DNA of 64,000 nucleotides from the NCBI RefSeq assembly GCF_002201475.1, contig NZ_CP021422.1, forward strand, positions 3,224,001 through 3,288,000. Reading direction: 5' to 3'. The notes under the pieces are model-generated. The model did no database searches, was not told where the DNA came from, and saw only the letters and a list, made by a program, of their open reading frames with translations. The position numbers and the translations under genes are program-made. Below are positions 38,829-54,453 of this stretch, piece by piece (the first letter of the stretch is position 1; each line of letters begins with the position of its first letter). Origin of the DNA: Acutalibacter muris (lineage in GTDB: Bacteria; Bacillota; Clostridia; Oscillospirales; Acutalibacteraceae).

Positions 38829-39320
38829 TTAAGCCCTTATCTCCGCCTTTATCTTCCCAAGGGCCCCCTTCTCAAGCCTTGACACCTGGGCCTGGGAGAT
38901 GCCCACAAGGCCCGCCACCTCCATCTGGGTCCTGCCGTCCAGAAAGCGCATGGAGAGTATGCGCTTTTCCCGCTCAGATAGGTTGTGGATGGCCTGTTTT
39001 ATGGCTATCTCCTCCAACCAGTCCTGGTCGTCGCTGCCGCCCACCTGGTCCATGATATACACCGGGTCCCCGCCGTCGGAGAAGGTGGGCTCGTATAGGG
39101 ACACCGGCTCCACAATGGCCTCCAGGGCCACCACCACGTCCTCCCGCTTTATCCCAAGCTCAGTCGCCATCTCCTCCACAGTGGGCTCCCTGCCGTTCTT
39201 TGCGGTAAGGCGCTCCTTGCACTGGATGGCCTTATAGGCCGTGTCCCGCATGGAGCGGCTGACCCTCACGGAGTTGTTGTCACGGAGGAAGCGACGTACC
39301 TCGCCGATTATCATGGGCAT
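38829..39320 (-). pseudogene. sigG: RNA polymerase sigma-G, 3' part (5' part separated by the ICE)
   Basis: About 163 codons from PMIIGEVRRFLRDNN to the end, covering regions 2.4-4. It is sigma-G rather than sigma-F: VRVSRSMRDTAYKA, EPVSLYEPTFSDGGDPVYIMDQ (part) and QAIHNLSEREKRIL match the G type. Region 4 helix-turn-helix QMEVAGLVGISQAQVSRLEKGAL. Upstream of ATGCCC (39320) homology stops and ICE sequence begins, with the recombinase 47 bases away. The 5' half should lie at the far ICE end, outside the window. Confidence 0.88.
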
Positions 39321-39325
39321 GAGAG
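39315..39325. other. ICE-sigG junction (attachment site)
   Basis: Sigma-G homology on the minus strand starts at (A/G)TGCCCATGATAATC. Just before it, GGGTACTCTC no longer fits the expected STYAV codons. The crossover is therefore at or just before 39320. The exact core cannot be fixed without the other end. Confidence 0.6.
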
Positions 39326-39366
39326 TACCCTGGGGAAAAACTATATTTTGAGGCAAAGAACAGCTA

Positions 39367-40809
39367 TTACGCAACATATTTGGCTGTCCCCGCCTTTCCT
39401 TTGTCCTTTAAGAAGGTGTAGAATATCTCCACCTTGTTCTTGTGAATGATAATGCGGTCAATGCAGTCCCGCAGCACGGTCTGGCGCTCCTGCATACTGA
39501 GCATACCCCAGGCCGACCGGATGCTGACTACCCGCTCCCGAACCAGGTCGATGTGCTTGGCCCGGGTGCGGGTCTCCTCCTCCATGATAAGCTGTTCCCG
39601 GAGCAGGGCCAGCTGGCGCTTGTTCTCCTCTATGGTGTCCAGCAGCATATCGTTGCCGTCTATGGCGTAGAGGTTATACAGGCGCTTGACTTTGGCCTCG
39701 GTTTGGGCGATCTGGCTCTCCAACTCCTGGAGGGGGTTGACCGGTGGGGCAGTGTCATCCTTTGTAGACCGTTCCAGATTGGCCGAGATGTTGAACAAGT
39801 CCTGTATCACCAGGTCCTCAATCTGGTCGGCCCAGCAGGGCTCTGAATCGCAGGAATCGGCCCGTTTCATGTGGGGCTTGGAGTTGTCTTTGGAGTAGCA
39901 GTACAGCTTGTAGCCGTTCTTGCCCCACTTCACATACCTCATACGTGCGCCGCACTCGCCGCAATACACAAGCCCAGCCAGCAGGTGGGTGCCTTTGGTA
40001 GGCACCCGGCTCTTCTCGGAGCGTTCCCGCATTTTGATTTGGGTCAGGTTGTATATCTCCTCCGAGATAATTGGCTCGTGCAGCCCGGGGTACTCCTCGC
40101 CCTTATAGCATATCACGCCGGTGTTGCTCTTTCGGGTCAATATCTGGGTGACGATCTTGTCATAGTGCAGCCCCAGCATATTGGCGATTTTTTGGGCGGA
40201 GTAGCCCTTCAAATAGAGGTCGTACATCTTCCGCACCTGTTCGGCCTGCTGGGGGTTCGGCACCAAGATACCCTGGTTTCGGTCGTAGTCATACCCGTAG
40301 GGTACTCCACCGCCGCCCATCCAGTAGCCCTGCTTGACCCTCTCCAGCATACCCATGCGGGTGCGCTGGTAAATGTTCTCGCGTTCAAGCTGGGCGAACG
40401 CTGACAGAATCCCTATCATGGCCCGGCCATAGGGCGTGCCGGTGTCGATGTTCTCGTTGAGAGATACGAAAGCCACATCGTTGGGGATAAAGATGTCCTC
40501 AATCAGGTACAGAGTGTCCTTCTGGCTGCGGGAGAGGCGGTCCAGCTTGTAGACCACCACCGCACACACCTTTCCCGCCTGTACGTCCGCGATCAACTGC
40601 TGCATTTTTGGGCGGTTCAGGTTGCTCCCGGAAAATCCGGGGTCGATATAAAGTTGATAGTTTTTCCATCCCATAGCCCGGCAGTAGGCTTCCAGCCGTT
40701 CCTGCTGGGCCCCGATGGAATAGCCCTCCTCCGCCTGCGCCTCCGTGGAAACACGGATATACAGCACGCGAAAGCGGGTTTCTAACTCTTGGTTTGGCTT
40801 GCTTGCCAC
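39367..40809 (-). CDS. large serine recombinase of the ICE
   Basis: 480 residues from GTG 40809 behind AAAGGAG; the ATG at 40845 has no site. YIRVST with nucleophile Ser21, VVVYKLDRLSRSQKD, FAQLERENIYQRT, then a recombinase domain, a zinc ribbon (YCGECGARMRY) and a C-terminal coiled coil. It integrates and excises the ICE at the sigG junction. The arrangement, recombinase gene pointing to and next to the sigma 3' half, mirrors the sigK element, but the proteins differ clearly in sequence. Confidence 0.92.
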   Translation of the reverse strand: MASKPNQELETRFRVLYIRVSTEAQAEEGYSIGAQQERLEAYCRAMGWKNYQLYIDPGFSGSNLNRPKMQQLIADVQAGKVCAVVVYKLDRLSRSQKDTLYLIEDIFIPNDVAFVSLNENIDTGTPYGRAMIGILSAFAQLERENIYQRTRMGMLERVKQGYWMGGGGVPYGYDYDRNQGILVPNPQQAEQVRKMYDLYLKGYSAQKIANMLGLHYDKIVTQILTRKSNTGVICYKGEEYPGLHEPIISEEIYNLTQIKMRERSEKSRVPTKGTHLLAGLVYCGECGARMRYVKWGKNGYKLYCYSKDNSKPHMKRADSCDSEPCWADQIEDLVIQDLFNISANLERSTKDDTAPPVNPLQELESQIAQTEAKVKRLYNLYAIDGNDMLLDTIEENKRQLALLREQLIMEEETRTRAKHIDLVRERVVSIRSAWGMLSMQERQTVLRDCIDRIIIHKNKVEIFYTFLKDKGKAGTAKYVA

Positions 40810-40875
40810 GTTTTCTCCTTTCCGGAAATGCCCTCTGCAAGGCACTTTCAGTATACCATATTGCCGGGTAGAAAA

Positions 40876-41052
40876 TCAATGGGAGAATTTCCCATCCGCC
40901 CGGTCACTGGGTTCTGACTTTGGCGTATCAAGAAGCCGGTGCTGCAAATCTTTCAGCACCATGACTACGCCGAGGTTTTCCACCTCAATGGCGGGCAGCT
41001 TTTCTCCCCTGTATGGCTCGTTGTTGATATAGCGTATAACTGTCATGTTCAT
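40876..41052 (-). CDS. small ICE protein upstream of the recombinase
   Basis: 58 residues from ATG 41052 with GAGGTGAT at good distance: starts MNMTVIRYINNEPYRGEKLP and ends GKFSH. The composition and ribosome site support a real gene; no family recognised. It could be a directionality factor or part of the recombinase regulon because it lies 66 bases ahead of it in the same direction. Confidence 0.55.
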   Translation of the reverse strand: MNMTVIRYINNEPYRGEKLPAIEVENLGVVMVLKDLQHRLLDTPKSEPSDRADGKFSH

Positions 41053-41141
41053 GGTATCACCTCATAGTTCATTATGGTCTGCTTGTCCGTGATGTAATCG
41101 CTTTCTGATTGGATTCCACCTGCGGAGGTTTTGTTTTGCAA
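41049..41141 (-). CDS. possible 30-residue peptide coupled to the small ICE protein
   Basis: A TTG at 41141 opens 30 codons ending SDYITDKQTIMNYEVIP; its TGA overlaps the next ATG (ATGA). No good ribosome site precedes the TTG. It may be the preserved end of a longer lost gene. Confidence 0.3.
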   Translation of the reverse strand: MQNKTSAGGIQSESDYITDKQTIMNYEVIP

Positions 41142-41403
41142 CGAAAAAATAAAAATATCTTCCCCAGCGTCCGTGGCTAACGGACTATGGAGTGGTCGGT
41201 TCTCCCATATTCCATGCGGGTATCGTCGCGTTGGGGCGGTGCCGCCGCCTCATATGTACTCATGGCCAGCTTGCCGGGCTGGTGGATAGCCGCTCGCCCA
41301 CAGGGATATGTACCGGGTCAGATTATGCGGTTGTCAAGGTTCGGGGCATGGGGAAATGCCTTTCACTCTATAAAAACAACTGAGATTTCGGAAATCTTCC
41401 CTT
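41142..41403. other. non-coding stretch, nothing recognised
   Basis: About 260 bases with short frames on both strands but no ribosome site, repeat or hairpin that I would defend. It probably holds the promoter for the small genes and recombinase. Confidence 0.4.
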
Positions 41404-41595
41404 TCAGAGAGAAAATTTTGAAATATTTTTGAAAATGTGCAGCAGGATATACTGGCGCAGGTCTTCGTCCAACTCTCCATCAATATAGCTTCTGCTATTT
41501 ATCAGCGGCATATATAACTCAATTATATCGGCAAGTGCTTCATTACTGCCATTCACTGCCGCCATAAGTGTCGTGCGAAATTCCTTGGCACTCAT
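41404..41595 (-). CDS. helix-turn-helix domain protein (Tn916-type small regulator)
   Basis: 63 residues with the HTH_16-like sequence FRTTLMAAVNGSNEALADIIELY seen next to sigma factors in Tn916/Tn1549-type elements (shown in part above 20 residues is avoided; key residues are AAVNGSNEAL and LINSRS). It overlaps the sigma gene by 4 bases. It probably helps control excision and transfer genes. Confidence 0.7.
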   Translation of the reverse strand: MSAKEFRTTLMAAVNGSNEALADIIELYMPLINSRSYIDGELDEDLRQYILLHIFKNISKFSL

Positions 41596-41981
41596 AACTC
41601 GCCACCGCTTTCCAGCGCATCGCGGAGCCTTTTTATTGCCAGTGACTTCTGCTTATAGACGTACTGTACCGTGCAGCCCAACTCCTTTGCTACTTCCTCT
41701 GGCGACATATCCAGAAAAAACAGCATTGCCATTATCTTCTTTTTTGCAGCGGGCAGCTGAGCAAACGCCTTTGAGAGATTCTCCTCCTCAAAACAGAAAC
41801 GCTCAGCCACCGGCATATCCTGGAAACATAACTGCTCCATAGGAGCTTCCTCCAGGGAAATCGTGTCCATTCTACGACTCTGTGCCTTTATGTAGTTTTG
41901 TCTTGCTCTGTAAACAGTCACCTCCATCCATTTCGTAAACCTCGCCCTAAGTTCATCTCGTTCCTGATTTTTCCCGCGCAT
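41592..41981 (-). CDS. sigma-70-like factor of the conjugative element
   Basis: 129 residues from ATG 41981 (AAAGGAG upstream). The N-terminal helix (RARFTKWMEVTVYRARQNY) and the region 4 HTH (MSPEEVAKELGCTVQYVYKQ) match the small sigma-like proteins of Tn916-type elements. It likely drives or modulates element genes. Co-translated with the downstream HTH gene. Confidence 0.8.
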   Translation of the reverse strand: MRGKNQERDELRARFTKWMEVTVYRARQNYIKAQSRRMDTISLEEAPMEQLCFQDMPVAERFCFEEENLSKAFAQLPAAKKKIMAMLFFLDMSPEEVAKELGCTVQYVYKQKSLAIKRLRDALESGGEL

Positions 41982-42087
41982 GGTGCGCTCCTTTCTCCCA
42001 GAGCACACCATCAGGGCAAAGCGCGGAACGAAAAAACCAGACACACCTGAATGGTATGCCTGGACAAAATGATATAAAAAGACAAAA

Positions 42088-42118
42088 AGGCCGGGCTACA
42101 TTTCTGTAGAACGGCCTT
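42088..42118 (-). terminator. terminator downstream of parR
   Basis: Minus strand AAGGCCG-TT-CTACA GAAA TGTAG-CC-CGGCCTT followed by TTTGTCTTTTT. Confidence 0.75.
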
Positions 42119-42271
42119 CATGCGAGCAGTCCGAAATAAAAGTATCAGCAGATATACAGAAAACCTATTTCTTACTGCACAATAATTTTACTGCTTCCAT
42201 TTTCAAAAAGAAAGTGTTGTAAAGGAGCACTTATAATCTCTTTAGATTAAGCGATAAAGAAATCGTGTGTT

Positions 42272-42619
42272 TTACTGAAACATATCTAAATTATCCAGCA
42301 TTTCTGTTATCTTGCCATTAAAATCCACATTGTTTCCAGTACCTGCTTCTGTTTTTGAGGTTGCCGCAAGCTGTTCTTCCAACAAATTACGTACCATTTC
42401 CCTTAATGATTCTGACGAAAGGCTCTGCACCGCCTTGATTTCGACCCTGCACTCCGGGCTGAGCAAGGCCGGGTGAGCAGCCAAATACTCCCCCAGCGCC
42501 GCCACCACGACGGCGCTTTTCTTATTTCCCAGCCTTTCCAGCAGTTCCCCGGCTTGTATCTGCTCCTCCGTCTCTGCCGGAAACTGTAGGGAGAACCTGT
42601 ACTTCCCATTCTTCCGCAT
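42272..42619 (-). CDS. ParR-like plasmid segregation centromere-binding protein
   Basis: 115 residues. The N-terminal ribbon-helix-helix-like part (KYRFSLQFPAETEEQIQAGE) and the C-terminal acidic segment (ITEMLDNLDMF), which in ParR binds ParM filaments, are both present. Only a stump of parM lies upstream, so active segregation is lost unless ParM comes from elsewhere. Confidence 0.7.
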   Translation of the reverse strand: MRKNGKYRFSLQFPAETEEQIQAGELLERLGNKKSAVVVAALGEYLAAHPALLSPECRVEIKAVQSLSSESLREMVRNLLEEQLAATSKTEAGTGNNVDFNGKITEMLDNLDMFQ

Positions 42620-42622
42620 ACG

Positions 42623-42730
42623 TTACCCCCGCAATCTTGCCAGCTGCTTCTCACCCAGCATCTCATAGCCCACAGCATTGGCGTTGGGCGAGTCGATAAA
42701 CTCCGCCTTACCAGCCAGGGGGGCCTCGCT
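42623..42730 (-). pseudogene. parM remnant (actin-like segregation ATPase, C-terminal end)
   Basis: About 35 codons reading SEAPLAGKAEFIDSPNANAV, GYEMLGEKQLARLRG, then stop. This is the C-terminal end usual for ICE ParM proteins. Homology ends near 42730 and the rest of the gene is gone, which marks a deletion end point. Confidence 0.6.
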
Positions 42731-42828
42731 TAAATATGAATGAGTTTTAATAGGAACACTGTAATATCAAGGCTTTTCGGAGCCAGCAACCACAAAAAAA
42801 TATTATTTGAGCTATCACATTACGCAGA

Positions 42829-42863
42829 AAGCCGTCCGGCATGAAAAAACGGGCGGCTTTTTT
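42829..42863 (+). terminator. hairpin upstream of the Pro/Ala-rich gene
   Basis: AAGCCGTCCG and CGGGCGGCTT (one G-U pair) around GCATGAAAAAA, then TTTT. A terminator for transcription entering from the left. Confidence 0.6.
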
Positions 42864-42956
42864 GCGTGGATAGCCGGGAGGGAGGCGAAAAAATAGTAAC
42901 AAAGTTTTAGTGCAAGATTTGTGCAACATTCACGAAATTAAAAAAGGAGGTAACGA

Positions 42957-43526
42957 ATGGCAGACGAAAAATTAAACGTGAGCCCGGAGGAAAATCCCCA
43001 GCCCAGCTTGTTCGATACTGGCCCGGCGGATGCTCCTGCCCCGGAAACATCCGCGCCGGAGCCCCCGGCCCCGGAGAACATTCCCGAGCAGGCCGCCGTG
43101 GATGCGCCCGCCCAGGATGCCCCGGCTGGTGCTCCCGGCGAGGTGAGTGTATCCGCTGACCAGATTGAAAAGCTCATGGCAGAACAGCGGGCGGCGGGAC
43201 GTGCGGAGGTGGAAAAGAACGAGCCGCCCGAACCGGAACAGCCGCCCACCCCGGCCCCGGAAGATAAGGCCGCCGGGGAAAAGGGGCCCGCCAAAAAGGA
43301 CAAGGCCGCCAAAGAAAAAAAGCCCGAGCCGGATAAACCCAAGGGCAGGCGGGGCCGCAAGCCCAAGGAAGAAAAAGCGGGGCCCGGCGAACCGGGAGGG
43401 ACGGGGGCCCGCAAGAGCCGCCCACCCAAGGCTGACAAGGCGGCCCCGGACAGGCCCCCGTCCCAACCTCGAGACAAAATGGAGCTGTTGACAAAGTGCC
43501 CCCAAATCGCTCGAAATATGGTATAA
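42957..43526 (+). CDS. Pro/Ala/Lys-rich ICE protein, 3' end changed by IS1182
   Basis: 189 residues, low complexity: acidic Pro/Ala-rich first half, Lys/Pro-rich second half (KGRRGRKPKEEKAG). An AAAGGAGG site precedes the ATG. The last 15 residues (MELLTKCPQIARNMV) come from the IS end, so the native C-terminus is lost. Such proteins occur at the start of the transfer region in CD1107-type ICEs; the exact role is unknown. Confidence 0.65.
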   Translation: MADEKLNVSPEENPQPSLFDTGPADAPAPETSAPEPPAPENIPEQAAVDAPAQDAPAGAPGEVSVSADQIEKLMAEQRAAGRAEVEKNEPPEPEQPPTPAPEDKAAGEKGPAKKDKAAKEKKPEPDKPKGRRGRKPKEEKAGPGEPGGTGARKSRPPKADKAAPDRPPSQPRDKMELLTKCPQIARNMV

Positions 43527-44980
43527 TTAGAGCAGGGGGGGCGAGGAAATGCAGTTAAAATATCACATGGTAACGATAGAGGATTTGGTACCGGAAAATC
43601 ATTTTCTGCGGAAATTGGAAGCGGCGCTGGATTTATCGTTTGTGTATGAGGAGACGGCGCACTTGTACAGCCGGAGGTATGGCCGTGCGCCCATAGACCC
43701 GGTAGTAATGGTAAAATACCTGTTGCTGGTTTTTTTGTACGGCATCCCCTCGGAGCGGCAGATCGAGGTGCGGTGTGCGGACAGCAACGCGTTTCGTTGG
43801 TATCTTGGAATAGATTTGGATGAACGAGTGCCAGACCACAGTACGATCAGCCAGCTGCGGCGGCGGAAGCCTGCGTTTCGGAAGGTGTTCCGGCGGCTGT
43901 TTGAGGAAGTGGTGCGCCAGTGCGTGGAAAAAGGTCTGGTGAGCGGACGGCTGGCGGTGACGGATTCCACCCACGTCAAGGCCAACGCGTCCAGGGCCTC
44001 GAAGCAGGAGGTAGATGCGCTGGAAGAGGTGGGGAACTATTGGGAGCGGCTGGACGCCTATGAGGAGGAGGGACTGGAGGAGCTGAAACGGCAGACAGGG
44101 CAGCGCCGGGCGAAGCGTACAAAGCAGGTGAAAAAGGACAAGCGCCGTTCCCACAAGAAGGTGAGTAGTACCGACCCGGAGTCGGGCTACATGAAGCGGC
44201 CCGGCAAGCCCAGCGGTTTTTATTATCTGTCTCACCAGACAACCGACCCGGACCACGGTATCATCACCGCTGTAACCGTGACGCCGGGGGGTGTCCATGA
44301 CTCACGGCCCTATTTGGAGCAGTTGGAGTACGTCCATAAAAGTGTTGTGCCGCTGCAAGCCGCCGCGGCGGACTCCGCCTATGACTTCCCCCTGGCACAC
44401 CGAGCGCTGGAAGAACTGGGCATCGACTTCTTTGTCGTGCCACAGCCCGCCCATGACCGCACGAAAGCTGAACTGAAGCGGGATGCATTCACCTATAACG
44501 AACAGCGGGACGTATACTTGTGCCCTAACGGGAAAGAACTGCGGCGCAAGCGGCTGTATCGAAGTGGCAGCGGGCTGTTCTGGGAATACTGGGCGGAAAA
44601 GAAAGACTGCGGCAGTTGTCCTTTGCGGCAGAAATGTTTGAATGAGACGGACAAGGCCGGCGCCAGAAAGCTCCAGGACAGTTATTTCAAGACTGTTGTT
44701 CAAGAACATTTCTCCAGGCGATGGGAGCCGGATTACCGGGAGGCGCTGAAGCAGCGGCAGATCTGGTGTGAGGGTACTTTTGCCGCACAGAAATGGGGAC
44801 ACAACCTGACGCGTCTCCTGCGGCGAGGTTTAGAGGCAGCGGAGGACCACTGTCTCCTTTCCGCCGCGGCCTTGAACCTCAAAAGAATGATTAAACACTC
44901 AGTGTGATGCCGAAAGGCATCTTTTTTCTTGCCTGAAATCTCCCTTGTCCCTTTATTTCAGGCACTTTGTCAACAGCTCC
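43481..44980 (+). mobile_element. IS1182-family element, copy 1
   Basis: 1500 bp with perfect terminal inverted repeats GGAGCTGTTGACAAAGTGCC. Left flank ends ACAAAAT and right flank begins ATTTTGTCCC, which are inverted, not direct, repeats of each other, unlike copy 2. This fits recombination between IS copies with loss of the DNA between them. Confidence 0.88.
43549..44907 (+). CDS. IS1182-family transposase, copy 1
   Basis: 452 residues: DUF772-type N-terminus (VPENHFLRKLEAALDLSFVY), DDE domain with AVTDSTHVKANAS (first Asp), ITAVTVTPGGVHDS and AADSAYDFPLAHRALE (second Asp), and a C-terminal Cys cluster (CGSCPLRQKCLN) then WCEGTFAAQKWGHNL (Glu). Appears intact. Differs from copy 2 by two residues (Gly for Asp in PGxVHDS; Ala for Thr in KAGxRK). 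Confidence 0.92.
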   Translation: MQLKYHMVTIEDLVPENHFLRKLEAALDLSFVYEETAHLYSRRYGRAPIDPVVMVKYLLLVFLYGIPSERQIEVRCADSNAFRWYLGIDLDERVPDHSTISQLRRRKPAFRKVFRRLFEEVVRQCVEKGLVSGRLAVTDSTHVKANASRASKQEVDALEEVGNYWERLDAYEEEGLEELKRQTGQRRAKRTKQVKKDKRRSHKKVSSTDPESGYMKRPGKPSGFYYLSHQTTDPDHGIITAVTVTPGGVHDSRPYLEQLEYVHKSVVPLQAAAADSAYDFPLAHRALEELGIDFFVVPQPAHDRTKAELKRDAFTYNEQRDVYLCPNGKELRRKRLYRSGSGLFWEYWAEKKDCGSCPLRQKCLNETDKAGARKLQDSYFKTVVQEHFSRRWEPDYREALKQRQIWCEGTFAAQKWGHNLTRLLRRGLEAAEDHCLLSAAALNLKRMIKHSV

Positions 44981-45008
44981 ATTTTGTCCCAAAGAAAGGA
45001 GGCTTGAA

Positions 45009-45383
45009 ATGCCCTATGTGAATGTACCTAACGACTTATCCAAAATCAAGACGAAAATCGCTTTCAATCTGACAAAACGCCAGCTTGTGTGTTTCGGCGG
45101 CGCGGCCCTTGTGGGAGTCCCCTCCTACCTGCTGGCCCGGAGCTCGTTTGGGAACACGGCGGCGTTGTTCCTGATGCTGGGCATCATGCTCCCGGCGTTT
45201 CTTCTGGCGATGTACGAGAAAGACGGCCTGCCGCTGGAAAAGGTGGTAAAGAACATCATCCGGGCCAAGTACCTGCGGCCCGGCGTGAGGCCCTACAAGA
45301 CCGGGAATATCTACGCGCCCTTTACCGGGCAGGCGGGAAAGGAGGCAGTGAATGGAAAACCGAAAAAGCAAAAGAAAGAATAA
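45009..45383 (+). CDS. PrgI-family conjugal transfer membrane protein
   Basis: 124 residues from ATG 45009 (AAAGGAGG). PYVNVPNDLSKIKTKIAFNL at the start, then two membrane helices (VCFGGAALVGVPSYLLA; AALFLMLGIMLPAFLLAMY), as in PrgI/VirB3-like proteins of Gram-positive type IV systems. It overlaps the virB4 start by 32 bases. The VirB6-like gene normally just upstream is missing. Confidence 0.88.
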   Translation: MPYVNVPNDLSKIKTKIAFNLTKRQLVCFGGAALVGVPSYLLARSSFGNTAALFLMLGIMLPAFLLAMYEKDGLPLEKVVKNIIRAKYLRPGVRPYKTGNIYAPFTGQAGKEAVNGKPKKQKKE

Positions 45384-47694
45384 GGCGGCCTTATCTTCCC
45401 AGCAGTCCATCCCCTATGTGGCGATGCACCCGGACGGCGTGTGCCAGCTCCCCGGCGGGCTCTACACAAAGACCGTGGAATATGAGGACATCAATTATTC
45501 CGTGGCATCCACCGAGGATCAGTCCGCGATATTCAGCGGGTGGAGCTCGTTCCTCAACTACTTCGACAGCGCGCTCCCCGTCCAGCTCTCCTTTATCAAC
45601 CGCCGCTCCCACTCCACCAGCCGCTACCATGTGAACATCCCCGCCCAGGCGGACGATTTTGACAGCATCCGGGGCGAGTTCGTGGGGATGCTCAAACGGC
45701 AGATTGCCCGGAGCAACAACGGGATTGAACGCTCCAAATATATCACCTTTGGCGTGCCCGCCGAGGGGATTGCCGCCGCCCGGCCCCGGCTTGACCGGGT
45801 GGAGGCGGACGTGATGGGGAACCTCCACCGGCTGGGCGTTCCCTCGTCCCCGCTGGACGGGCGGGAGCGGCTGGCCCTCCTGCATGGGCAGATGCACCCC
45901 GGACGGCGGGAGCCGTTCCGCTTTTCATGGGGCGATATTTCCAAAACGGGCATGGGGACAAAGGACTTCATCACCCCCAGCGGCGGCTTTGACTTTAGGG
46001 GCTCCCGGTTCTTCCGTGTGGGCGGCTTTTGGGGCGCGGCGTCCTATCTTCAGATTTTGGCGTCCGAGCTCTCTGACCGCCTTTTGCGGGAAATTCTGGA
46101 GCTGGACGCGGAGCTCACCGTCACCATGCACATCCAGACCGTTGACCAGTTAAAGGCGATAAAGACCATCAAGGGGAAAATCTCGGACATCGACAAGATG
46201 AAAGTGGAGGAGCAGAAAAAGGCCGTCCGCGCCGGGTACGACATGGATATACTTCCCCCCGACCTTATCACGTTCAGCAAGGACGCGGCGGAGCTGCTGG
46301 GGGATTTGCAGTCCCGGAATGAGCGGATGTTCCTTTTGACGTTCACCGTCATCAACCTCGCCCCCACCCGCCAGCGGCTGGAAAATGACGTGTTCACCGT
46401 CTCCGGCATCGCGCAGAAATACAACTGCGCCTTAAAGCGGCTGGACTGGCAGCAGGAGCAGGGCTTTATGTCCTCGCTGGCCCTCGGCTATAACGAGGTG
46501 CAGATACAGCGGGGCATGACCACCAGCTCCACCGCGATTTTCATTCCCTTTATGACGCGGGAGCTCCGCATGGGCGGGCAGGCCCTCTACTACGGCATGA
46601 ACGCGCTTTCCCACAATGTCATCATGGCTGACCGGAAAAAGCTGAAATCCGCCAATGGGATGTATCTTGGCTCCACGGGCTCCGGCAAGAGCTTTGCCGC
46701 CAAACGGGAATTGATAAACGTCTTTCTTGCCACAAGTGACCGCATCGTTATCGTTGACCCGATGGGGGAATATTCCCCGCTGGTACGGCGGCTGGGCGGG
46801 CAGGTCATTGAGATTGCCCCGGACAGCCCCCACCACATCAACCCGATGGATATTGAAATCGGTTTGAATGACGAGGACAGCCCCCTTTCCATGAAAGCGG
46901 ATTTTCTGCTTTCCCTCTGTGAGCTGGTGGTAGGCGGCAAGGACGGCCTGCAACCTATTGAAAAGACCGTGATTGACCGCTGTGTGCGGCTGGTGTACCG
47001 GGAGCTTGCGCTGGGGCTGGAGGGCGCAAAGATGCCTTTGCTCCAGAGCTTGTACGAGGAATTACTCAAACAGCCGGAGCCGGAGGCGAAACGTGTGGCG
47101 ACTGCGCTGGAGCTCTACTGTACGGGCTCCCTCAATCTGTTCAACCACCCGACCAATGTGGACTTGAGCTCCCGGGTGGTGTGCATCGTGCTGAAAGGGC
47201 TGGGGGAGAACCTCCGCAAGATTGCGATGCACGTCACCAACGAGTTTGTCACCTCGGCGGTGAATACCAACTATAAAAGCGGCGCGGCGACGTGGTGCTA
47301 CTTTGACGAGTTCCACATCCTGCTCCGCGACCCGCTGACCGCCAGCTACTTTGTGGCGGTGTGGAAGATGCTCCGCAAAAAGGGCTGTGTGCCCTCGGCC
47401 CTCACGCAGAACGTGAAAGACCTTTTGGCCAGCCGGGAAATCGAGAACATACTGGATAACACCGATTTTCTTGTTCTGCTCTCCCAGGCCCAGAGCGACC
47501 GGGCCATCATCGCAAAACAGCTCGGCATTTCCGAGCACCAGCTTTCCTATATCACCCACAGCAATTCCGGCGAGGGCCTGCTGTTCTATGGGAATGTGAC
47601 CATCCCCTTTGTTGACCGTTTCCCCAAGGGTGAGATTTACAACCTGCTCACCACCCGCCCGGAGGACATAGCCAATGACCAGAGGAACGAATAA
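45352..47694 (+). CDS. VirB4-family conjugation ATPase
   Basis: 780 residues with Walker A GSTGSGKSFAAKREL at about 440, Walker B region (TWCYFDEFHILL) and the arginine-rich C-terminus of TraE/VirB4 ATPases (VPSALTQNVKDLLASRE). Powers assembly of the transfer channel at the membrane. Full length and apparently intact. Confidence 0.92.
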   Translation: MENRKSKRKNKAALSSQQSIPYVAMHPDGVCQLPGGLYTKTVEYEDINYSVASTEDQSAIFSGWSSFLNYFDSALPVQLSFINRRSHSTSRYHVNIPAQADDFDSIRGEFVGMLKRQIARSNNGIERSKYITFGVPAEGIAAARPRLDRVEADVMGNLHRLGVPSSPLDGRERLALLHGQMHPGRREPFRFSWGDISKTGMGTKDFITPSGGFDFRGSRFFRVGGFWGAASYLQILASELSDRLLREILELDAELTVTMHIQTVDQLKAIKTIKGKISDIDKMKVEEQKKAVRAGYDMDILPPDLITFSKDAAELLGDLQSRNERMFLLTFTVINLAPTRQRLENDVFTVSGIAQKYNCALKRLDWQQEQGFMSSLALGYNEVQIQRGMTTSSTAIFIPFMTRELRMGGQALYYGMNALSHNVIMADRKKLKSANGMYLGSTGSGKSFAAKRELINVFLATSDRIVIVDPMGEYSPLVRRLGGQVIEIAPDSPHHINPMDIEIGLNDEDSPLSMKADFLLSLCELVVGGKDGLQPIEKTVIDRCVRLVYRELALGLEGAKMPLLQSLYEELLKQPEPEAKRVATALELYCTGSLNLFNHPTNVDLSSRVVCIVLKGLGENLRKIAMHVTNEFVTSAVNTNYKSGAATWCYFDEFHILLRDPLTASYFVAVWKMLRKKGCVPSALTQNVKDLLASREIENILDNTDFLVLLSQAQSDRAIIAKQLGISEHQLSYITHSNSGEGLLFYGNVTIPFVDRFPKGEIYNLLTTRPEDIANDQRNE

Positions 47695-47720
47695 CGCCGG
47701 GGACAAAGGCACTTCGGGAC

Positions 47721-49230
47721 AAAATGGAGCTGTTGACAAAGTGCCTGAAATAAAGGGACAAGGGAGATTTCAGGCAAGAAAAAAGATGCCTTTCGGCATC
47801 ACACTGAGTGTTTAATCATTCTTTTGAGGTTCAAGGCCGCGGCGGAAAGGAGACAGTGGTCCTCCGCTGCCTCTAAACCTCGCCGCAGGAGACGCGTCAG
47901 GTTGTGTCCCCATTTCTGTGCGGCAAAAGTACCCTCACACCAGATCTGCCGCTGCTTCAGCGCCTCCCGGTAATCCGGCTCCCATCGCCTGGAGAAATGT
48001 TCTTGAACAACAGTCTTGAAATAACTGTCCTGGAGCTTTCTGGTGCCGGCCTTGTCCGTCTCATTCAAACATTTCTGCCGCAAAGGACAACTGCCGCAGT
48101 CTTTCTTTTCCGCCCAGTATTCCCAGAACAGCCCGCTGCCACTTCGATACAGCCGCTTGCGCCGCAGTTCTTTCCCGTTAGGGCACAAGTATACGTCCCG
48201 CTGTTCGTTATAGGTGAATGCATCCCGCTTCAGTTCAGCTTTCGTGCGGTCATGGGCGGGCTGTGGCACGACAAAGAAGTCGATGCCCAGTTCTTCCAGC
48301 GCTCGGTGTGCCAGGGGGAAGTCATAGGCGGAGTCCGCCGCGGCGGCTTGCAGCGGCACAACACTTTTATGGACGTACTCCAACTGCTCCAAATAGGGCC
48401 GTGAGTCATGGACATCCCCCGGCGTCACGGTTACAGCGGTGATGATACCGTGGTCCGGGTCGGTTGTCTGGTGAGACAGATAATAAAAACCGCTGGGCTT
48501 GCCGGGCCGCTTCATGTAGCCCGACTCCGGGTCGGTACTACTCACCTTCTTGTGGGAACGGCGCTTGTCCTTTTTCACCTGCTTTGTACGCTTCGCCCGG
48601 CGCTGCCCTGTCTGCCGTTTCAGCTCCTCCAGTCCCTCCTCCTCATAGGCGTCCAGCCGCTCCCAATAGTTCCCCACCTCTTCCAGCGCATCTACCTCCT
48701 GCTTCGAGGCCCTGGACGCGTTGGCCTTGACGTGGGTGGAATCCGTCACCGCCAGCCGTCCGCTCACCAGACCTTTTTCCACGCACTGGCGCACCACTTC
48801 CTCAAACAGCCGCCGGAACACCTTCCGAAACGCAGGCTTCCGCCGCCGCAGCTGGCTGATCGTACTGTGGTCTGGCACTCGTTCATCCAAATCTATTCCA
48901 AGATACCAACGAAACGCGTTGCTGTCCGCACACCGCACCTCGATCTGCCGCTCCGAGGGGATGCCGTACAAAAAAACCAGCAACAGGTATTTTACCATTA
49001 CTACCGGGTCTATGGGCGCACGGCCATACCTCCGGCTGTACAAGTGCGCCGTCTCCTCATACACAAACGATAAATCCAGCGCCGCTTCCAATTTCCGCAG
49101 AAAATGATTTTCCGGTACCAAATCCTCTATCGTTACCATGTGATATTTTAACTGCATTTCCTCGCCCCCCCTGCTCTAATTATACCATATTTCGAGCGAT
49201 TTGGGGGCACTTTGTCAACAGCTCCAAAAT
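47721..49230 (-). mobile_element. IS1182-family element, copy 2, with AAAAT target duplication
   Basis: IS proper 47726-49225 (1500 bp, same inverted repeats as copy 1), inverted relative to it. Flanking direct repeats AAAAT (47721-47725 and 49226-49230). Rejoining them gives GGGACAAAATGTCCC, the hairpin found intact elsewhere in this ICE. Confidence 0.88.
47799..49157 (-). CDS. IS1182-family transposase, copy 2
   Basis: 452 residues, almost identical to copy 1 with the same DDE residues and Cys cluster; apparently intact. Near identity implies recent spread inside the element. The pair in opposite orientation can invert or mobilise the prgI-virB4 segment between them. Confidence 0.92.
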   Translation of the reverse strand: MQLKYHMVTIEDLVPENHFLRKLEAALDLSFVYEETAHLYSRRYGRAPIDPVVMVKYLLLVFLYGIPSERQIEVRCADSNAFRWYLGIDLDERVPDHSTISQLRRRKPAFRKVFRRLFEEVVRQCVEKGLVSGRLAVTDSTHVKANASRASKQEVDALEEVGNYWERLDAYEEEGLEELKRQTGQRRAKRTKQVKKDKRRSHKKVSSTDPESGYMKRPGKPSGFYYLSHQTTDPDHGIITAVTVTPGDVHDSRPYLEQLEYVHKSVVPLQAAAADSAYDFPLAHRALEELGIDFFVVPQPAHDRTKAELKRDAFTYNEQRDVYLCPNGKELRRKRLYRSGSGLFWEYWAEKKDCGSCPLRQKCLNETDKAGTRKLQDSYFKTVVQEHFSRRWEPDYREALKQRQIWCEGTFAAQKWGHNLTRLLRRGLEAAEDHCLLSAAALNLKRMIKHSV

Positions 49231-49278
49231 GTCCCAAAGTCCCCGAAAGGGCCCAAAACCAAAAAATCGAAATTCCGC

Positions 49279-50514
49279 ATGGAAAGCGAACAGGAAAAAA
49301 TCAGCAAGTCCAAGCTCCGCATGGAGACGCGGGAGGACAAGTTGAACCGGGCCCGGAAAAAGCTGGAGGGCAAAAAGCCGCCGAAGCCCAGGGGCCCGGT
49401 GCGCCGGGCTTTTGGGGCCGCCGGGTGGAGCGCCCACGGCTTTGTGCATGGCAAAATCTACGAGGTGGAGCATGAAAACGTGGGAACCGAGGGGACCCAC
49501 CGCTCCGAGCTTTTGGGCGAGGCCGCTCTCCGGCAGGGGACGCGGTACGCAAAAAAGCGCATCCGGGAGCACCCGGCCCGGGCCGTCCATAAGGCCGAGA
49601 CGCAGTACATCAAGGCCCGGGCGGACTACCAGTTCCGCATGGCCGCCCAGGAGAACCCGGAGCTTGCAAAGAACGCCGTCACCCGCTACTGGCACAAGCA
49701 AAAGCTGAAAAAGCAGTACGCCAAACAAGCGCGGCAGGCGGCGAAACAGACCGCGAAACAGACCGCGAAACAAGGGGCCAAGGCCGCCGGGAAAACCGCC
49801 GCCGCCACGGAAAAGCTGGCGGAGCGGGCCGTGGCTTTCGTGAAACGGCATCCCGTGGGGGCGCTTATCGCGCTGGCCTGCGTGGTGCTCGTTTTATCCC
49901 TCCAGTCCTGCGCGTCCTCCCTTATCACTTTGGGGAACGCCGCCGCAGGCGCGGTTGGGGCCACCACCTACCCCGCCCAGGACGGGGATATGCTGGGGGC
50001 CGAGGCCGCTTATTGTTCGCTGGAGGCGGAGCTCCAGCATTATCTGGATACCTACGAAAGCACACACGACTATGACGAGTACCATTTTGATTTGGACGCT
50101 ATTGAGCACGACCCCTATGTGCTGATTTCCTTATTGAGCGCATGGCATGAGGGCGAGTGGACGCTGGCGGATGTCCGGCCTACGCTGCAGATGCTCTTTG
50201 ACCGCCAGTACACGCTGACAGAGAACGTGGTAAAGGAGCGGCGGTACTACATCGAAACGGATACATGGACGGACGAGGACGGCAATACCCACACCGACAG
50301 CTACCGGGTGTATTACGATTATTACATCTGCTATGTGACGCTGGATAACTTCAACCTTTCCCATCTCCCTATCTACATCATGGGGGAGGACAAGGTTTGC
50401 CGCTTGAAAACCCGCTTGTATCAAGGCTTTCCGGGCGCGGTTCATGGGGCCCGGTATGTTTCTATGTCCGGCCCCCGTTTCCCCGCCCAAAAGCTAACAT
50501 CTGAGAGGAGGTAA
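49279..50514 (+). CDS. CD1108-like ICE protein, missing its peptidoglycan hydrolase domain
   Basis: About 411 residues if begun at ATG 49279; the native start is uncertain because the open frame runs back into the IS end (to 49201). Basic N-terminus rich in Lys/Arg/Gln, one membrane helix (VGALIALACVVLVLSL, about residue 215), then an extracytoplasmic part reaching IYIMGEDKV. In related proteins an NlpC/P60 or lysozyme domain follows that point; here 38 unrelated residues lead to the stop, so the domain that opens the cell wall is gone. Confidence 0.65.
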   Translation: MESEQEKISKSKLRMETREDKLNRARKKLEGKKPPKPRGPVRRAFGAAGWSAHGFVHGKIYEVEHENVGTEGTHRSELLGEAALRQGTRYAKKRIREHPARAVHKAETQYIKARADYQFRMAAQENPELAKNAVTRYWHKQKLKKQYAKQARQAAKQTAKQTAKQGAKAAGKTAAATEKLAERAVAFVKRHPVGALIALACVVLVLSLQSCASSLITLGNAAAGAVGATTYPAQDGDMLGAEAAYCSLEAELQHYLDTYESTHDYDEYHFDLDAIEHDPYVLISLLSAWHEGEWTLADVRPTLQMLFDRQYTLTENVVKERRYYIETDTWTDEDGNTHTDSYRVYYDYYICYVTLDNFNLSHLPIYIMGEDKVCRLKTRLYQGFPGAVHGARYVSMSGPRFPAQKLTSERR

Positions 50515-50516
50515 CT

Positions 50517-51059
50517 TTGGAAAAAGCGCAGGAATACAAGTATTATTCTACCCAGCGGCCCGTTGACATCGGCACGTTCCCCAATGGCAAGGAAAACCCG
50601 CCCATCCGGATCGAAAACTACGAGGGCCGGATTTGGGTGGAGCATGATACCCGGCTTGCATGGGGCGAGCTGGCCTATGCCCAGCCGCTCACGGAAAAGG
50701 AGCTCTATAATTACGAACTCAAGCCATCCCGTGATAACCCGGATATGCGGCGGCTGATGGATACCCAGGCCCAGGTGGTGGGGAAATGGGAGGACGAGGG
50801 CCGCGTCCCTGATGGAAAGCGGCTGACATGGTTTTACCCGGATTTTGGGTGCTATGTAGTGAAAGAATTTGTTTCCCCGGAGCGGCTGGCCGAGTGTGCC
50901 CGTGGGGTGGAGCTCCAGCAGGAGGCCGCTGGCCGTAAACGGGCCCGGCAGGAAAAACCCCCGATTGCCGCACAACTGCGGGAGGCTGGGAAACTGGCCG
51001 GGGAACGGCAGGCCCCCGCCGCGCCCAAACGGAACGCGCCCGACCGGGGCGACAGGTAG
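50517..51059 (+). CDS. conserved ICE protein of unknown function
   Basis: 180 residues from TTG 50517 behind GAGAGGAGG. The N-terminal half (YYSTQRPVDIGTFPNGKENP; YEGRIWVEHDTRLAWGELAY) is typical of a protein found beside MobC in such ICEs. The C-terminal part is charged. No enzymatic motif seen. Two bases separate it from MobC. Confidence 0.6.
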   Translation: MEKAQEYKYYSTQRPVDIGTFPNGKENPPIRIENYEGRIWVEHDTRLAWGELAYAQPLTEKELYNYELKPSRDNPDMRRLMDTQAQVVGKWEDEGRVPDGKRLTWFYPDFGCYVVKEFVSPERLAECARGVELQQEAAGRKRARQEKPPIAAQLREAGKLAGERQAPAAPKRNAPDRGDR

Positions 51060-51061
51060 GC

Positions 51062-51412
51062 ATGGCCGGAAAAAAGCGCCGCCGCCCCATCCATCTCCAT
51101 GTGATGGTGTCCGAGGATGAGCAGGCGCTTATCCGGGAACGCATGGCCCAGGCGGGCATCCGCAACATGGGGGCCTATATGCGCCGGATGGCCCTCTGCG
51201 GCTATGTGCTCCAGATTGACCTTGCCCCCGTCCGAGAGCTGGTGTCCCTCCAGCGGCGATGCTCAAACAATCTCAATCAAGTGGCCATCCATGCCAACAC
51301 CTACGGGGGCATCTACCCCGAGGAAATATCGGCCCTCCAGCGGGACTACTCCGCTTTGTGGGGCCCTCTGTCTGATTTGCTGAAACAGCTTTCCGCGCTG
51401 GTGGAGCTGTGA
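51062..51412 (+). CDS. MobC-like relaxosome protein
   Basis: 116 residues: ribbon-helix-helix-like start (IHLHVMVSEDEQALIRERMA), then YMRRMALCGYVL and SNNLNQVAIHANTYGG, the MobC core. It assists the relaxase at oriT. Followed by a strong terminator. The relaxase gene was probably next before AbiH was inserted. Confidence 0.85.
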   Translation: MAGKKRRRPIHLHVMVSEDEQALIRERMAQAGIRNMGAYMRRMALCGYVLQIDLAPVRELVSLQRRCSNNLNQVAIHANTYGGIYPEEISALQRDYSALWGPLSDLLKQLSALVEL

Positions 51413-51418
51413 CCTGCT

Positions 51419-51452
51419 GGGGAGCGGTGCTGTGCCGCTCCCCGGCTTTTTT
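51419..51452 (+). terminator. terminator after mobC
   Basis: GGGGAGCGG / CCGCTCCCC around TGCTGTG, followed by GGCTTTTTTC. Confidence 0.88.
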
Positions 51453-51460
51453 CGTACTTC

Positions 51461-51475
51461 GGGACATTTTGTCCC
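51461..51475. repeat. GGGACATTTTGTCCC hairpin repeat, intact copy
   Basis: Same 15-bp palindromic unit that, in the reverse loop orientation, carries IS1182 copy 2; another copy is at 54285. It marks module borders in this ICE. Confidence 0.7.
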
Positions 51476-51598
51476 AAAGATGGGTAGATTGTCGAAATGA
51501 GATGTGATATAATTATGTTTAAGCAAGCGAAAAAATATGTTTAAGTGAAAATGCTTTGCTTTATATGAGTTAGTATGCGTTCAAAGGAGGCACTGGCT

Positions 51599-52768
51599 TT
51601 GAATATTCTTATCATTGGAAATGGGTTTGATTTAGCTCATGGCCTACCCACAAAATATGAGCATTTTTTGAAATATGTTGACGCCTTTAAGCGATTTAAG
51701 GATATCTGTAAACAAGAAAGCGTTAAGGCTGACTGGGAAACTGCGAACGAAGAAGATAAAGATTTTATACTACACTTTGCTAATCTTTATGATAAAAAAC
51801 CACAAATTTATAAAGAAATAGAAAACCTAATTTCAAATAATGTTTGGATTGATTATTTTTGGAAGATTTATAAAAGCCGAGGAATAGCTGGGAAAGATGG
51901 GTGGATCGATTTTGAGAGTGAAATATCAAGGATAATACAAACACTTGATAAAGCAAGGCTTACTATTTTAGAAGAGATAAACCGAGGTCAAAAGCTGGGA
52001 AAAATGACGTATCAACAATCAAATATTCTCTCTCCGCTTTGGGGTAAACCGGGAACAAGCTGTGATAGCATGAAATTTGATGAAAACGCAGTCGGATATA
52101 AAAAAACACGATTTTTAACAGATTTAAATAGGCTTACACGGTGCTTGGAAATCTATCTGAGTAATTATGTTGAAGAAATTACTCCTAAAGTTAAACTACC
52201 GGACATTGATGGGCTGACTATTCATTGTGTTCTTAGTTTTAATTACACTCATACATATCAAAGATTTTATGACGCAAACAAAAATCCAAAAATAAGATAC
52301 GACTATATTCACGGGGAAACAAAAGCTGGAAGTGACGTCGATAATTGCAATCTTATTCTTGGAATTGATGAATATTTAGAAGGATATGCCAAAGATAGAG
52401 ACAATGAGTTCATTCAGTTCAAGAAATTTTATCAGAGAATTTATAAAAAGACTGGCTGCAAATATATTGACTGGATGAATAGTATGGCACAGATGCCATC
52501 GGGTTATGGGAGAAACGGAGATGCCATACATAATGTCTATATTATAGGACATTCCTTGGACATTACCGACAAAGATATTCTTTCAAGCCTAATTAACATG
52601 GAAAGCACCAAAACAACAATTTTCTATCATAGTCAGACAACTCTGGGAAACCAAATAAGTAATCTTGTCAAAGTCCTCGGCGAGGATAGGCTTATTGCTA
52701 AAGTACATGGGGCAAATGCAAGCATTGTTCTACAAAAACAGCAGGAGGCAATCCCGATAGAGCATTAA
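51599..52768 (+). CDS. AbiH-family abortive infection protein
   Basis: 389 residues from TTG 51599 (AAAGGAGG at 51581). It begins NILIIGNGFDLAHGLPTKYE, the AbiH signature, with the later LSFNYTHTYQRFYD and YIIGHSLDITDKDILS blocks, all typical. Such proteins stop phage growth by killing or arresting the infected cell; the mechanism is not known. Much more AT-rich than the ICE backbone and placed between mobC and the relaxase, so it is recently gained cargo. Confidence 0.85.
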   Translation: MNILIIGNGFDLAHGLPTKYEHFLKYVDAFKRFKDICKQESVKADWETANEEDKDFILHFANLYDKKPQIYKEIENLISNNVWIDYFWKIYKSRGIAGKDGWIDFESEISRIIQTLDKARLTILEEINRGQKLGKMTYQQSNILSPLWGKPGTSCDSMKFDENAVGYKKTRFLTDLNRLTRCLEIYLSNYVEEITPKVKLPDIDGLTIHCVLSFNYTHTYQRFYDANKNPKIRYDYIHGETKAGSDVDNCNLILGIDEYLEGYAKDRDNEFIQFKKFYQRIYKKTGCKYIDWMNSMAQMPSGYGRNGDAIHNVYIIGHSLDITDKDILSSLINMESTKTTIFYHSQTTLGNQISNLVKVLGEDRLIAKVHGANASIVLQKQQEAIPIEH

Positions 52769-52858
52769 TTATAGAAATTAAGTTAATAAATTATTTGAAA
52801 GAATGACAGAAGGTGAGTTGCCTTACTGTCATTTTTTCTGTTAAAAGGAGGTGCTACC

Positions 52859-54265
52859 ACGGCCACGACCTACATCCGGCCCTACAAGCAGGCGGCGGGA
52901 CTGAGCGCCGTCCAGACGATGGAGGAGCGGTTTGCCTACGGGCTCAACCCCCAAAAGCTGGGGGCCGTGTCCTCCCACCTTTGCGACCCGGCCACAGCCG
53001 CCGCCGAGTTTCTGCTGGTGAAAAGCGAATACCAGGCGGCCACCGCCCGGCCCGTGGAGCGCGGGGCTCTGTTTTTCCAGATACGGCAGGCGTTCCCGCC
53101 CGGCGAGGTGACGGCGGAGGAGGCAAACAAGCTGGGCTTTGAAACGGCGATGCGCTGGACGAAAGGCAAGTACCAGTTTTTCGTCTGCACCCATACCGAC
53201 AAGGGCCACATTCACAATCATATCTATTTCAATTCCACGGCCTTTGACTGCTCCCGGAAATTTCATAATTTCCTCGGCTCCAGCTTTGCCCTCCGGCGGC
53301 TGTCTGACCGGGTATGTCTGGAGCATGATTTGTCCGTGATACAAAACCCCAAACAGCACAGCAAGGGCCGTTTCCTCCACTATGGCCAGTGGATAGGCGA
53401 CAAGCCGCCCTCCGCTCAACAGCGGGGGCGGCTGGCAATCATCGCGGCCCTTGAAAAAAAGCCCGCCGACTTTGCCGCGTTCCTCCGGCTGATGGAAGAG
53501 TCCGGCTTTGCCGTCAAGTGCGGGCGGGGCGGCGTGGTTTCGTTCCTCGCGCCGGGGCAGGACAAGTACACCCGGCTCCGGGCATCCACCCTCGGCGCGG
53601 GCTTTGACCCCGAGGACATCCGGGCAGTGATCGCCGGGGAGCGGCCCCTCCCGGAGCTCCCCAAGAACGCGCCGCCCCCGGCCCGGCAGGTGGGGCTTAT
53701 CATTGACATTCAAAAGCGCATGGCCGAGGGCAAGGGCCCGGCTTATGAACGGTGGGCGAAAGTCTACAACCTAAAGCAGATGGCCGCCGCCCTCCAGTTT
53801 TTGCAGGAAAACAATCTCACCGACTATGACGCGCTGGCGGCAAAGACCACGGCGGCGGTTGACCGGGCCTACGCGCTGGCCGGGGAGCTCCAGACCACCG
53901 AGGCCGCCCTCTCGAAAGTCTCCAAGCTGATGGGGGCCGTGGTGGACTATGCCAAGGCCCGGCCCGTGTTCGATGGCTACAAGGCGGCCCGGTACTCGAA
54001 AAAATACCTTGCCGAGCACGAGGCGGAGCTTGCCACCTACCGGGCGGCCCGGGCCGCTATGAATGAATTGTTGGGCGGTGCAAAGCTCCCCAAAATGGAC
54101 GCGCTGAAAAAACAGCGGCGGGAGCTGGCGGATAAGAAAAAGGCCCTCTATGCCGAGTATAGGCAGGCCCAGCGGGATATGCGGGAGGCCGTGGCGGTCA
54201 AGGCCAACATCGACCATCTGCTCGGCCTTACGGACGGGCGCACAGATAAGGAACAGACGCGATAG
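52859..54265 (+). CDS. MobA/VirD2-type relaxase, apparent ACG start
   Basis: 468 residues if begun at ACG 52859 (ribosome site AAAAGGAGG, 9 bases away), giving the family's usual N-terminus ATTYIRPYKQAAGLS. The first ATG in frame is 52919. Catalytic Tyr candidate is in TYIRPY or FAYGL; metal-binding histidines are in THTDKGHIHNHIYFN. It nicks oriT and pilots the strand. The C-terminal half is coiled and lacks a helicase or primase domain. Confidence 0.85.
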   Translation, partial: TATTYIRPYKQAAGLSAVQTMEERFAYGLNPQKLGAVSSHLCDPATAAAEFLLVKSEYQAATARPVERGALFFQIRQAFPPGEVTAEEANKLGFETAMRWTKGKYQFFVCTHTDKGHIHNHIYFNSTAFDCSRKFHNFLGSSFALRRLSDRVCLEHDLSVIQNPKQHSKGRFLHYGQWIGDKPPSAQQRGRLAIIAALEKKPADFAAFLRLMEESGFAVKCGRGGVVSFLAPGQDKYTRLRASTLGAGFDPEDIRAVIAGERPLPELPKNAPPPARQVGLIIDIQKRMAEGKGPAYERWAKVYNLKQMAAALQFLQENNLTDYDALAAKTTAAVDRAYALAGELQTTEAALSKVSKLMGAVVDYAKARPVFDGYKAARYSKKYLAEHEAELATYRAARAAMNELLGGAKLPKMDALKKQRRELADKKKALYAEYRQAQRDMREAVAVKANIDHLLGLTDGRTDKEQTR

Positions 54266-54284
54266 CGGCGGTGACGCAGCCAAC

Positions 54285-54311: not shown

Positions 54312-54339
54312 TCGGGTTTGGGGAGGCTCCCCAACAAGC

Positions 54340-54405: not shown

Positions 54406-54453
54406 CGCGCAACCCCGGAAGTGGCGCGAAAAAACGGAGGCGCGTGCTTCTCT

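Follow-up and report, generated by a model that had tools for sequence, protein, structure and literature searches.

The sigG gene of Acutalibacter muris lies in two pieces

The window analyzed here, a stretch of 64,000 nucleotides (G000:C1:3224001-3288000), belongs to the genome of Acutalibacter muris (G000), a single 3.80-Mb contig. Within it lie the sigG 3' part and, directly ahead, the gene of a large serine recombinase (LSR), among the following features (window coordinates):

38829..39317, minus strand: sigG 3' part, from the Pro of PMIIGE to the stop (NCBIfam SigG, 6.2e-71)
39316..39341, minus strand: recombinase half-site (B arm) abutting the CC core, TTTTTCCCCAGGGTACTCTCATG/CC (related half-sites at other junctions)
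39318..64000, continuing to G000:C1:3323358, no strand assigned: window part of a 60.0-kb intervening element (two junctions compared with intact relatives)
39367..40845, minus strand: LSR of the sigG-linked family, 492 aa (Pfam PF00239, PF07508, PF13408)
40876..41052, minus strand: 58-aa ORF, candidate recombination directionality factor (similar small ORFs upstream of sigG-linked LSRs; no Pfam or PHROG match)

The open reading frame at 38829-39377 (minus strand) reads ...FPQGTLM-PMIIGEVRRFLRDN..., and the sigG C half within it comprises 162 aa from the Pro, with SigG as the best NCBIfam match (NF006071, 6.2e-71; TIGR02850, 1.4e-69). The first-pass annotation placed the start of this part at PMIIGE, with a large serine recombinase within 50 bases, and this was confirmed: the LSR gene ends 49 bases ahead of the P codon. 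The same annotation expected an N half on the minus strand at the far end of the element, ending in STYA(V). A whole-genome search with TIGR02850 located the 5' half there, outside the window, with a match at G000:C1:3323352-3323633 (minus strand); the half itself is placed at 3323361-3323642 and belongs to a 108-aa ORF with the C-terminal end ...STYGV-P-MTFPWGKREGGAK*, that is, STYGV rather than STYA(V). The two halves tile the SigG model (TIGR02850 positions 2-95 and 93-252), and SigG is the best NCBIfam match of both. They are 60.0 kb apart on the minus strand in direct order, N half first, so that simple excision would rejoin sigG.

TIGR02850 has 11 matches in the contig. The C half (236.8 bits) and the N half (155.2 bits) are followed by a nearly full-length factor (146.7 bits) that is 38% identical to SigG; the remaining eight matches are weaker, and two of them are the halves of sigK (NCBIfam-confirmed). 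The curated SigG cut-off of this model, 457 bits, is passed by neither half and by none of the 394 genomes of the order. No complete sigG was found anywhere in the G000 contig by this search. Of the two objections named beforehand, a missing 5' half and a second complete sigG, neither was borne out.

The interruption falls in the Pro codon preceding MIIGE

The split falls at the CC of the Pro codon that precedes MIIGE. The N junction of G000 reads ..TATGGGGTG/CC/GATGACGTTCCCTTGGGGAAA and the C junction ..TTTTTCCCCAGGGTACTCTCATG/CC/CATGATAATCGG, with two near-palindromic flanking arms. The empty site is present in 21 of the 29 genomes of the window's genus, in which sigG is whole at this position and reads STYGVPMIIGEV. 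Because these genus-mates all read GTN-CCN-ATGAT (VPMIIGE), the core common to both junctions is the Pro-codon CC, and the leading ATG at the C junction derives from the element arm. A different register, VPMPMII, in which the C junction ATGCCCATG might reflect an AT core and a duplicated CCCATG in the target, is ruled out by VPMIIGE in the same 21 genomes. Joining the G000 halves across this short shared core with inverted arms restores the sigG reading frame.

In G027, the LSR of which is 89% identical to that of G000, the arms are swapped round relative to G000, with CC still in the sigG sense strand. We infer that the dinucleotide is flipped relative to the arms in G027, as expected if the dinucleotide alone sets orientation. 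Between G000 and G027, a natural LSR family with one conserved target occurs in both insertion orientations, which fits orientation being set by the central dinucleotide.

The flanks of the G000 halves were compared with those of seven relatives. The N-half leader (56-57 nt) aligns in G018, G010, and G019; for the DNA 3' of the C half, alignments were obtained with G018, G010, and G021 and, reversed, with G026; neither flank aligns in G005 and G011. Across lineages, a quasi-palindromic half-site was found at all 39 C junctions and all 41 N junctions entered. In the 24 nt beside the core, conservation amounts to 0.88 (C) and 0.89 (N) bits per column, compared with ~0.1 further out.

The uninterrupted allele was also recovered from metagenomic data. 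P0004 (ENA, 1,059-bp metagenomic contig, 9 members) matches 94 of 94 residues of the G000 N half and continues uninterrupted as PMIIGEVRRFLRD. This contig demonstrates an uninterrupted allele of G000 or of a closely similar strain rather than excision itself, and its source may be a strain that lacks the element.

A dedicated recombinase family and a candidate directionality factor

Besides its close relative in G027, the sigG LSR of G000 is 48-62% identical to sigG-linked LSRs of other lineages and 27-28% identical to sigK- and ssp-linked LSRs. The sigG-linked LSRs are mutually mostly 45-62% identical between lineages and share 22-34% identity with the sigK- and ssp-linked LSRs compared (42% in one local alignment). 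Named LSR families are missed by the G000 protein (CcrB, 187.7 bits vs a cut-off of 900; XisF, 147.7 vs 375; NCBIfam). At E <= 1e-100, the LSR was detected in 6 of 398 genomes of the family; five of these LSRs adjoin sigG halves, and the sixth genome, G329, has a whole sigG.

Upstream of the LSR, an ORF of 41-65 aa with a loose shared pattern, picked by eye, is present at 18 of 19 loci, the one without it being G163. These small ORFs are only weakly alike between lineages, and the three searched matched no Pfam or PHROG family; pN/pS of the small ORF is 0.47 and 0.33 in two genera. We propose the encoded protein as a candidate directionality factor.

A simple scan for sigma-F promoters in the DNA ahead of the small ORF gave matches at 4 of 18 loci, two of them only under a relaxed pattern; among these 18 loci, there was no match in G000 and none common to genus-mates. 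Two other promoter candidates for a small ORF/LSR operon were rejected: in g220, a conserved TATAAT-like motif most likely acts as promoter for the divergent pta, and TCTGCTATACTG lies in the coding part of the small ORF.

The 60.0-kb element resembles an integrative conjugative element

Within the window, the element encodes:

41592..42044, minus strand: sigma-70 region 4-like regulator (PF08281, 3.1e-08)
43549..44907, plus strand: IS transposase inside the element (PF05598/PF13751)
44967..45383, plus strand: PrgI-family protein, conjugation (PF12666, 8.6e-32)
45352..47694, plus strand: VirB4/TraG-type ATPase, conjugation (PF19044, 2.2e-11)
47799-49157, minus strand: second IS transposase copy, with the same length and first 70 residues as the first copy
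51062..51412, plus strand: NikA/MobC-like mobilization protein (PF21983, 1.1e-12)
52919..54265, plus strand: relaxase (PF03432, 5.9e-28)

Given the PrgI-family protein, the VirB4/TraG-type ATPase, the NikA/MobC-like protein, and the relaxase, the element looks like an integrative conjugative element (ICE); judged from sequence, it combines a relaxase, a conjugation ATPase, and a site-specific recombinase. Near the N junction, two internal near-copies of the A arm (genome positions 3317031 and 3312859; 3 mismatches in 25) each precede a further copy of the MTRKQAI gene, which also comes after the N junction. The pieces between them encode a CBASS-type cyclase accompanied by E2 and 4TM proteins, an ATPase resembling AbiLi, and a pair resembling AbiLi/AbiLii. 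Together, the arm copies and the anti-phage-like genes suggest that modules are stacked in the element. The region G000:C1:3312244-3323346 (L011, L012) points to the sigG junction as a possible hotspot for defense cargo.

This gene content fits a plain mobile element that uses sigG as its attB, in which case the ICE would sit in a gene that is silent during growth, block sporulation, and be lost only on transfer or curing, with no developmental control. The scarcity of the split in the window's genus (4 of 29 genomes), the existence of an element-free allele (P0004), and the sigma-F scan, which found no forespore promoter in G000, are all in line with this account. We nevertheless consider it unlikely, given the genus-wide split in g175 and g220, where pN/pS of the halves is 0.035-0.15, and the g175 insert, both described below.

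Split sigG recurs across genera

In 35 genomes representing 16 genera, both sigG junctions were read; the interrupted codon is the same throughout, and the half-sites are related. In the order, 29 of 394 genomes carry the sigG LSR family at E <= 1e-100. A full-length sigG match is absent in 28 of these 29 genomes vs 52 of the 365 others (Fisher p 1.3e-20, the genomes not being phylogenetically independent). In these counts, taken from per-genome best E-values, the absence of full-length sigG means a best TIGR02850 E weaker than 1e-90; G659, joined at this site yet interrupted near the 3' end, was counted as full-length. Among the 52 LSR-negative genomes, G489, G726, G747, and G261 were inspected individually, and G489, in which sigG is cut by a contig end, was left out of the split count. 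In the class, the family is present in 10 of 391 genomes, G000 included.

A search of 18 LSR-positive or suspect genomes found N and C pieces apart in 13, only one piece in 4 (N in G612; C in G777, G941, and G747), and, in G758, a sigG-type LSR with an extra sigG N half beside it (L211, G758:C14) plus a whole sigG. The 29 genomes of the window's genus comprise, besides the 21 with whole sigG, 4 split cases (one of them, G024, with the N junction only), 1 with sigG at a contig end, and 3 without a SigG match. At the same site, sigG is split in all 5 g175 genomes of the order sample and in 10 of 11 g220 genomes. When the truncated N half was searched against 5.8 billion proteins, within a length range chosen to leave out whole SigG, 6,968 of 7,999 scored proteins matched at E <= 1e-20. 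Among the 120 of these truncated SigG proteins that were listed, 90 have a foreign tail directly after STY[AGS][VIL]P, 28 continue natively, and 2 are unscorable.

The arrangement of the halves (ARRANGEMENTS) varies. In g175 (G473, G501, G551, G619), they are direct and 6.4 kb apart; the insert looks metabolic from its ORFs inspected by eye, and no conjugation gene was recognized among them, which does not fit a plain mobile element. Direct halves are also found at 6.7 kb (G765), about 15 kb (G004), and 17 kb (G597), compared with 60 kb in G000. In G690, the halves are inverted at a distance of 3.7 kb.

The genus g220 is probably Agathobaculum, as suggested by how the relatives of its LSR, 76-77% identical, are named. 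Here, the N half adjoins an amidohydrolase-like gene, and the C half lies behind the LSR, near a pta-like gene in most loci viewed (gene names by eye). In the complete, one-contig genome G724, the halves are inverted and 757 kb apart. In G719, they are 112 kb apart on one strand with C ahead of N, an order in which joining would put sigG on a circle. In other g220 genomes, the halves lie on different contigs; G571, for example, has them at position 523 kb of a contig 754 kb long and at position 152 kb of one that is 177 kb long. Different contigs also carry the halves in the class-level genomes with both pieces, and in several class-level genomes the LSR adjoins neither half; the cases of distant halves are mostly draft assemblies. 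Joining would here call for a hypothetical on-demand 757-kb inversion in G724 or 112-kb circle in G719, a point against restoration of sigG by the LSR.

Both halves are under purifying selection in two genera

In two genera, both halves of split sigG are under purifying selection, with pN/pS, computed on a codon alignment, like or below that of whole sigG. The median values are 0.037 (N) and 0.035 (C) in g175 (5 genomes), 0.150 and 0.107 in g220 (7 of the 10 split genomes), and 0.122 and 0.189 for whole sigG in the window's genus (g1; 21 genomes). Of the two alternatives in the first-pass annotation, an asporogenous strain or a reversible switch on sporulation, either may apply to G000; in these relatives, the genus-wide, constrained split argues for a working switch. 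With the split present in only 4 of 29 genomes of the window's genus, the insertion there may have happened recently, and little can be concluded from constraint on the G000 copy.

Constraint on both halves could also be expected if the N part (region 2) and the C part (regions 3-4) were two cooperating polypeptides. Split sigma factors exist, as in SigO/RsoA, and the conserved, distant halves in g220 and other genomes, as well as an ATG at or beside the start of the C half, would agree with a factor working in trans. However, the N-half tails differ freely in length and sequence between species, no Shine-Dalgarno sequence was seen by eye ahead of the C half, and the conserved part of both junctions is the DNA half-site. 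Conservation of the DNA site and the two coding halves, but not of the N tails, favors DNA joining, and we regard a protein split in trans as very improbable.

Each of the 25 joined sigG sequences can be read in frame through the junction without a stop; the frame stays open as far as the normal 3' end in 22 and as far as a second interruption in 3, although openness is partly built into the extraction. Full-length SigG proteins near g220 exist (120 listed), but none of the 23 compared among these equals the two halves of any species examined, so they do not prove joining.

A model for the restoration of sigG

In our assessment, LSR-mediated recombination of the sigG junctions, by excision or inversion, probably restores sigG. 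The sequence shows the precise split, the empty site, the arms, the LSR, the recurrence, and the constraint on both halves in two genera; that the halves join in vivo, when they do so, and what the small protein contributes are inferences in the following account. The sigG gene would serve as the integration site for a dedicated LSR family. In G000, a 60-kb composite element consisting of ICE genes and stacked defense modules would have entered sigG by LSR recombination at the Pro-codon CC. The LSR, probably with the small upstream-encoded protein as directionality factor, would recombine the junctions (attL x attR), yielding uninterrupted sigG and the released element. In relatives, the same reaction would take the form of excision of 6-17 kb, inversion of 3.7 kb, or recombination between distant loci. 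It would be expected shortly before or in the forespore. To persist, the element would then have to re-integrate or be kept by sister cells; with inverted halves, it would not be lost at all.

A broader proposal is that several genera keep the gene for the forespore sigma factor as two distant pieces that are assembled on demand by a dedicated serine recombinase, via large inversions or circle formation. We put this forward tentatively, as somewhat less probable than not. If true, on-demand sigG assembly would be a programmed, heritable, genome-scale DNA rearrangement in a bacterial germline, heritable because inversion, unlike excision, loses nothing.

Relationship to known intervening elements

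Interrupted sporulation genes named in PMC4191935, PMC5025042, PMC5595907, and PMC10747680 are sigK, spsM, spoVFB, gerE, and yabG. A full-text literature search, which covered sources other than subscription papers and preprints, returned no title or abstract on an interrupted sigG, in agreement with the first-pass view that no such element has been described. The word sigG is absent from the intervening-element papers checked for it, and the papers checked that do contain it use it otherwise.

The sigG system resembles the skin elements in sigK of B. subtilis and C. difficile, in which an LSR-bearing element likewise precisely splits a sporulation sigma gene, with attachment sites at the element ends and, in C. 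difficile, a directionality factor, for which the sigG element has a candidate (PMC5025042 for the skin elements). Skin elements target the mother-cell sigma-K, whereas the sigG element targets the forespore sigma-G; moreover, the sigG halves of relatives may be inverted or distant, and excision from sigG is a prediction from sequence. Other sporulation genes that are interrupted and can be rejoined by a serine recombinase host SPbeta (spsM), vfbin (spoVFB), gin (gerE), and yin (yabG), and gin illustrates that such elements need not be phage-like (PMC4191935, PMC5595907, PMC10747680). The comK prophage of Listeria undergoes regulated excision from a regulator gene in non-terminal cells (PMC5025042), but involves a phage and a competence regulator, compared with an ICE and a sporulation sigma factor here. 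We place the sigG element among the intervening elements; its dispersed form might merit separate classification, should joining be demonstrated.

The published reason for settling in sporulation genes is exit from the doomed mother cell only (PMC4191935, PMC5025042). According to PMC4191935, excision of intervening elements, including SPbeta, vfbin, gin, and yin, is confined to the terminal mother cell, and the spore genome keeps the element; the same paper puts the activity of sigma-G in the forespore. Such confinement is not available to a forespore gene and is therefore unlikely to apply to the sigG element. Recurrent, constrained interruption of sigG would thus be an exception, in the cell that founds the next generation. 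In C. acetobutylicum engineered to lack sigG, sporulation does not proceed beyond engulfment (PMC8102284). A further implication of the split is that Clostridia able to sporulate could appear in gene surveys with sigG missing or truncated.

Other split sporulation genes

The first-pass annotation described sigG as cut by a second recombinase element with the same layout as at sigK, and this holds: sigK of G000 is also split beside an LSR (window 15066-15512 and 28617-28991, minus strand, about 13 kb), a 576-aa protein (window 15430-17160, minus strand) that adjoins the C half and is 27% identical to the sigG LSR.

SASP and SpoIVA matches were found in 20 of 20 genomes checked, with SASP in two pieces in three (G000, G719, G704) and SpoIVA in one piece in 19. 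G000 has no SASP (PF00269) matches other than two pieces of a single gene, ~85 kb apart (G000:C1:1066771, L149, and 1151768, L150). A 563-aa serine recombinase, of a family other than the sigG-linked LSR, lies directly ahead of the C part, and the 3' end of the gene departs from the family. In the g220 genomes G719 (L151/L152) and G704 (L153), the SASP gene is split as well, and the recombinases are 64-65% identical.

With its SASP gene split and deviating at the 3' end, the Acutalibacter muris strain could be asporogenous. More generally, sporulation might have been lost, leaving sigG and ssp as neutral landing sites bound to decay, a possibility to which the SASP splits in three genomes and a second sigG interruption in G764, G709, G659, and G597 lend themselves. 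The in-frame joined sequences (25 of 25, with the reservation on extraction given above), constraint on the halves matching that of whole genes in two genera, unsplit SpoIVA in 19 of 20 genomes, and the conserved arms speak against decay, and we consider such a relic highly improbable compared with restoration of sigG by its LSR.

In G061, the SpoIVA match is in two pieces on two contigs (L154, L155), with a 628-aa serine recombinase near one of them. The second sigG interruption site is EI[HG][LI]S-QAQVSR (G764, L106; G709, L107; G659, L123; G597, L102). G659 was rejected as an example of intact sigG: it is joined at the Pro site, yet interrupted at this second site near the 3' end. The second form of sigG interruption is also carried by protein clusters P0246 and P0247, with 902 and 1,088 members, respectively.
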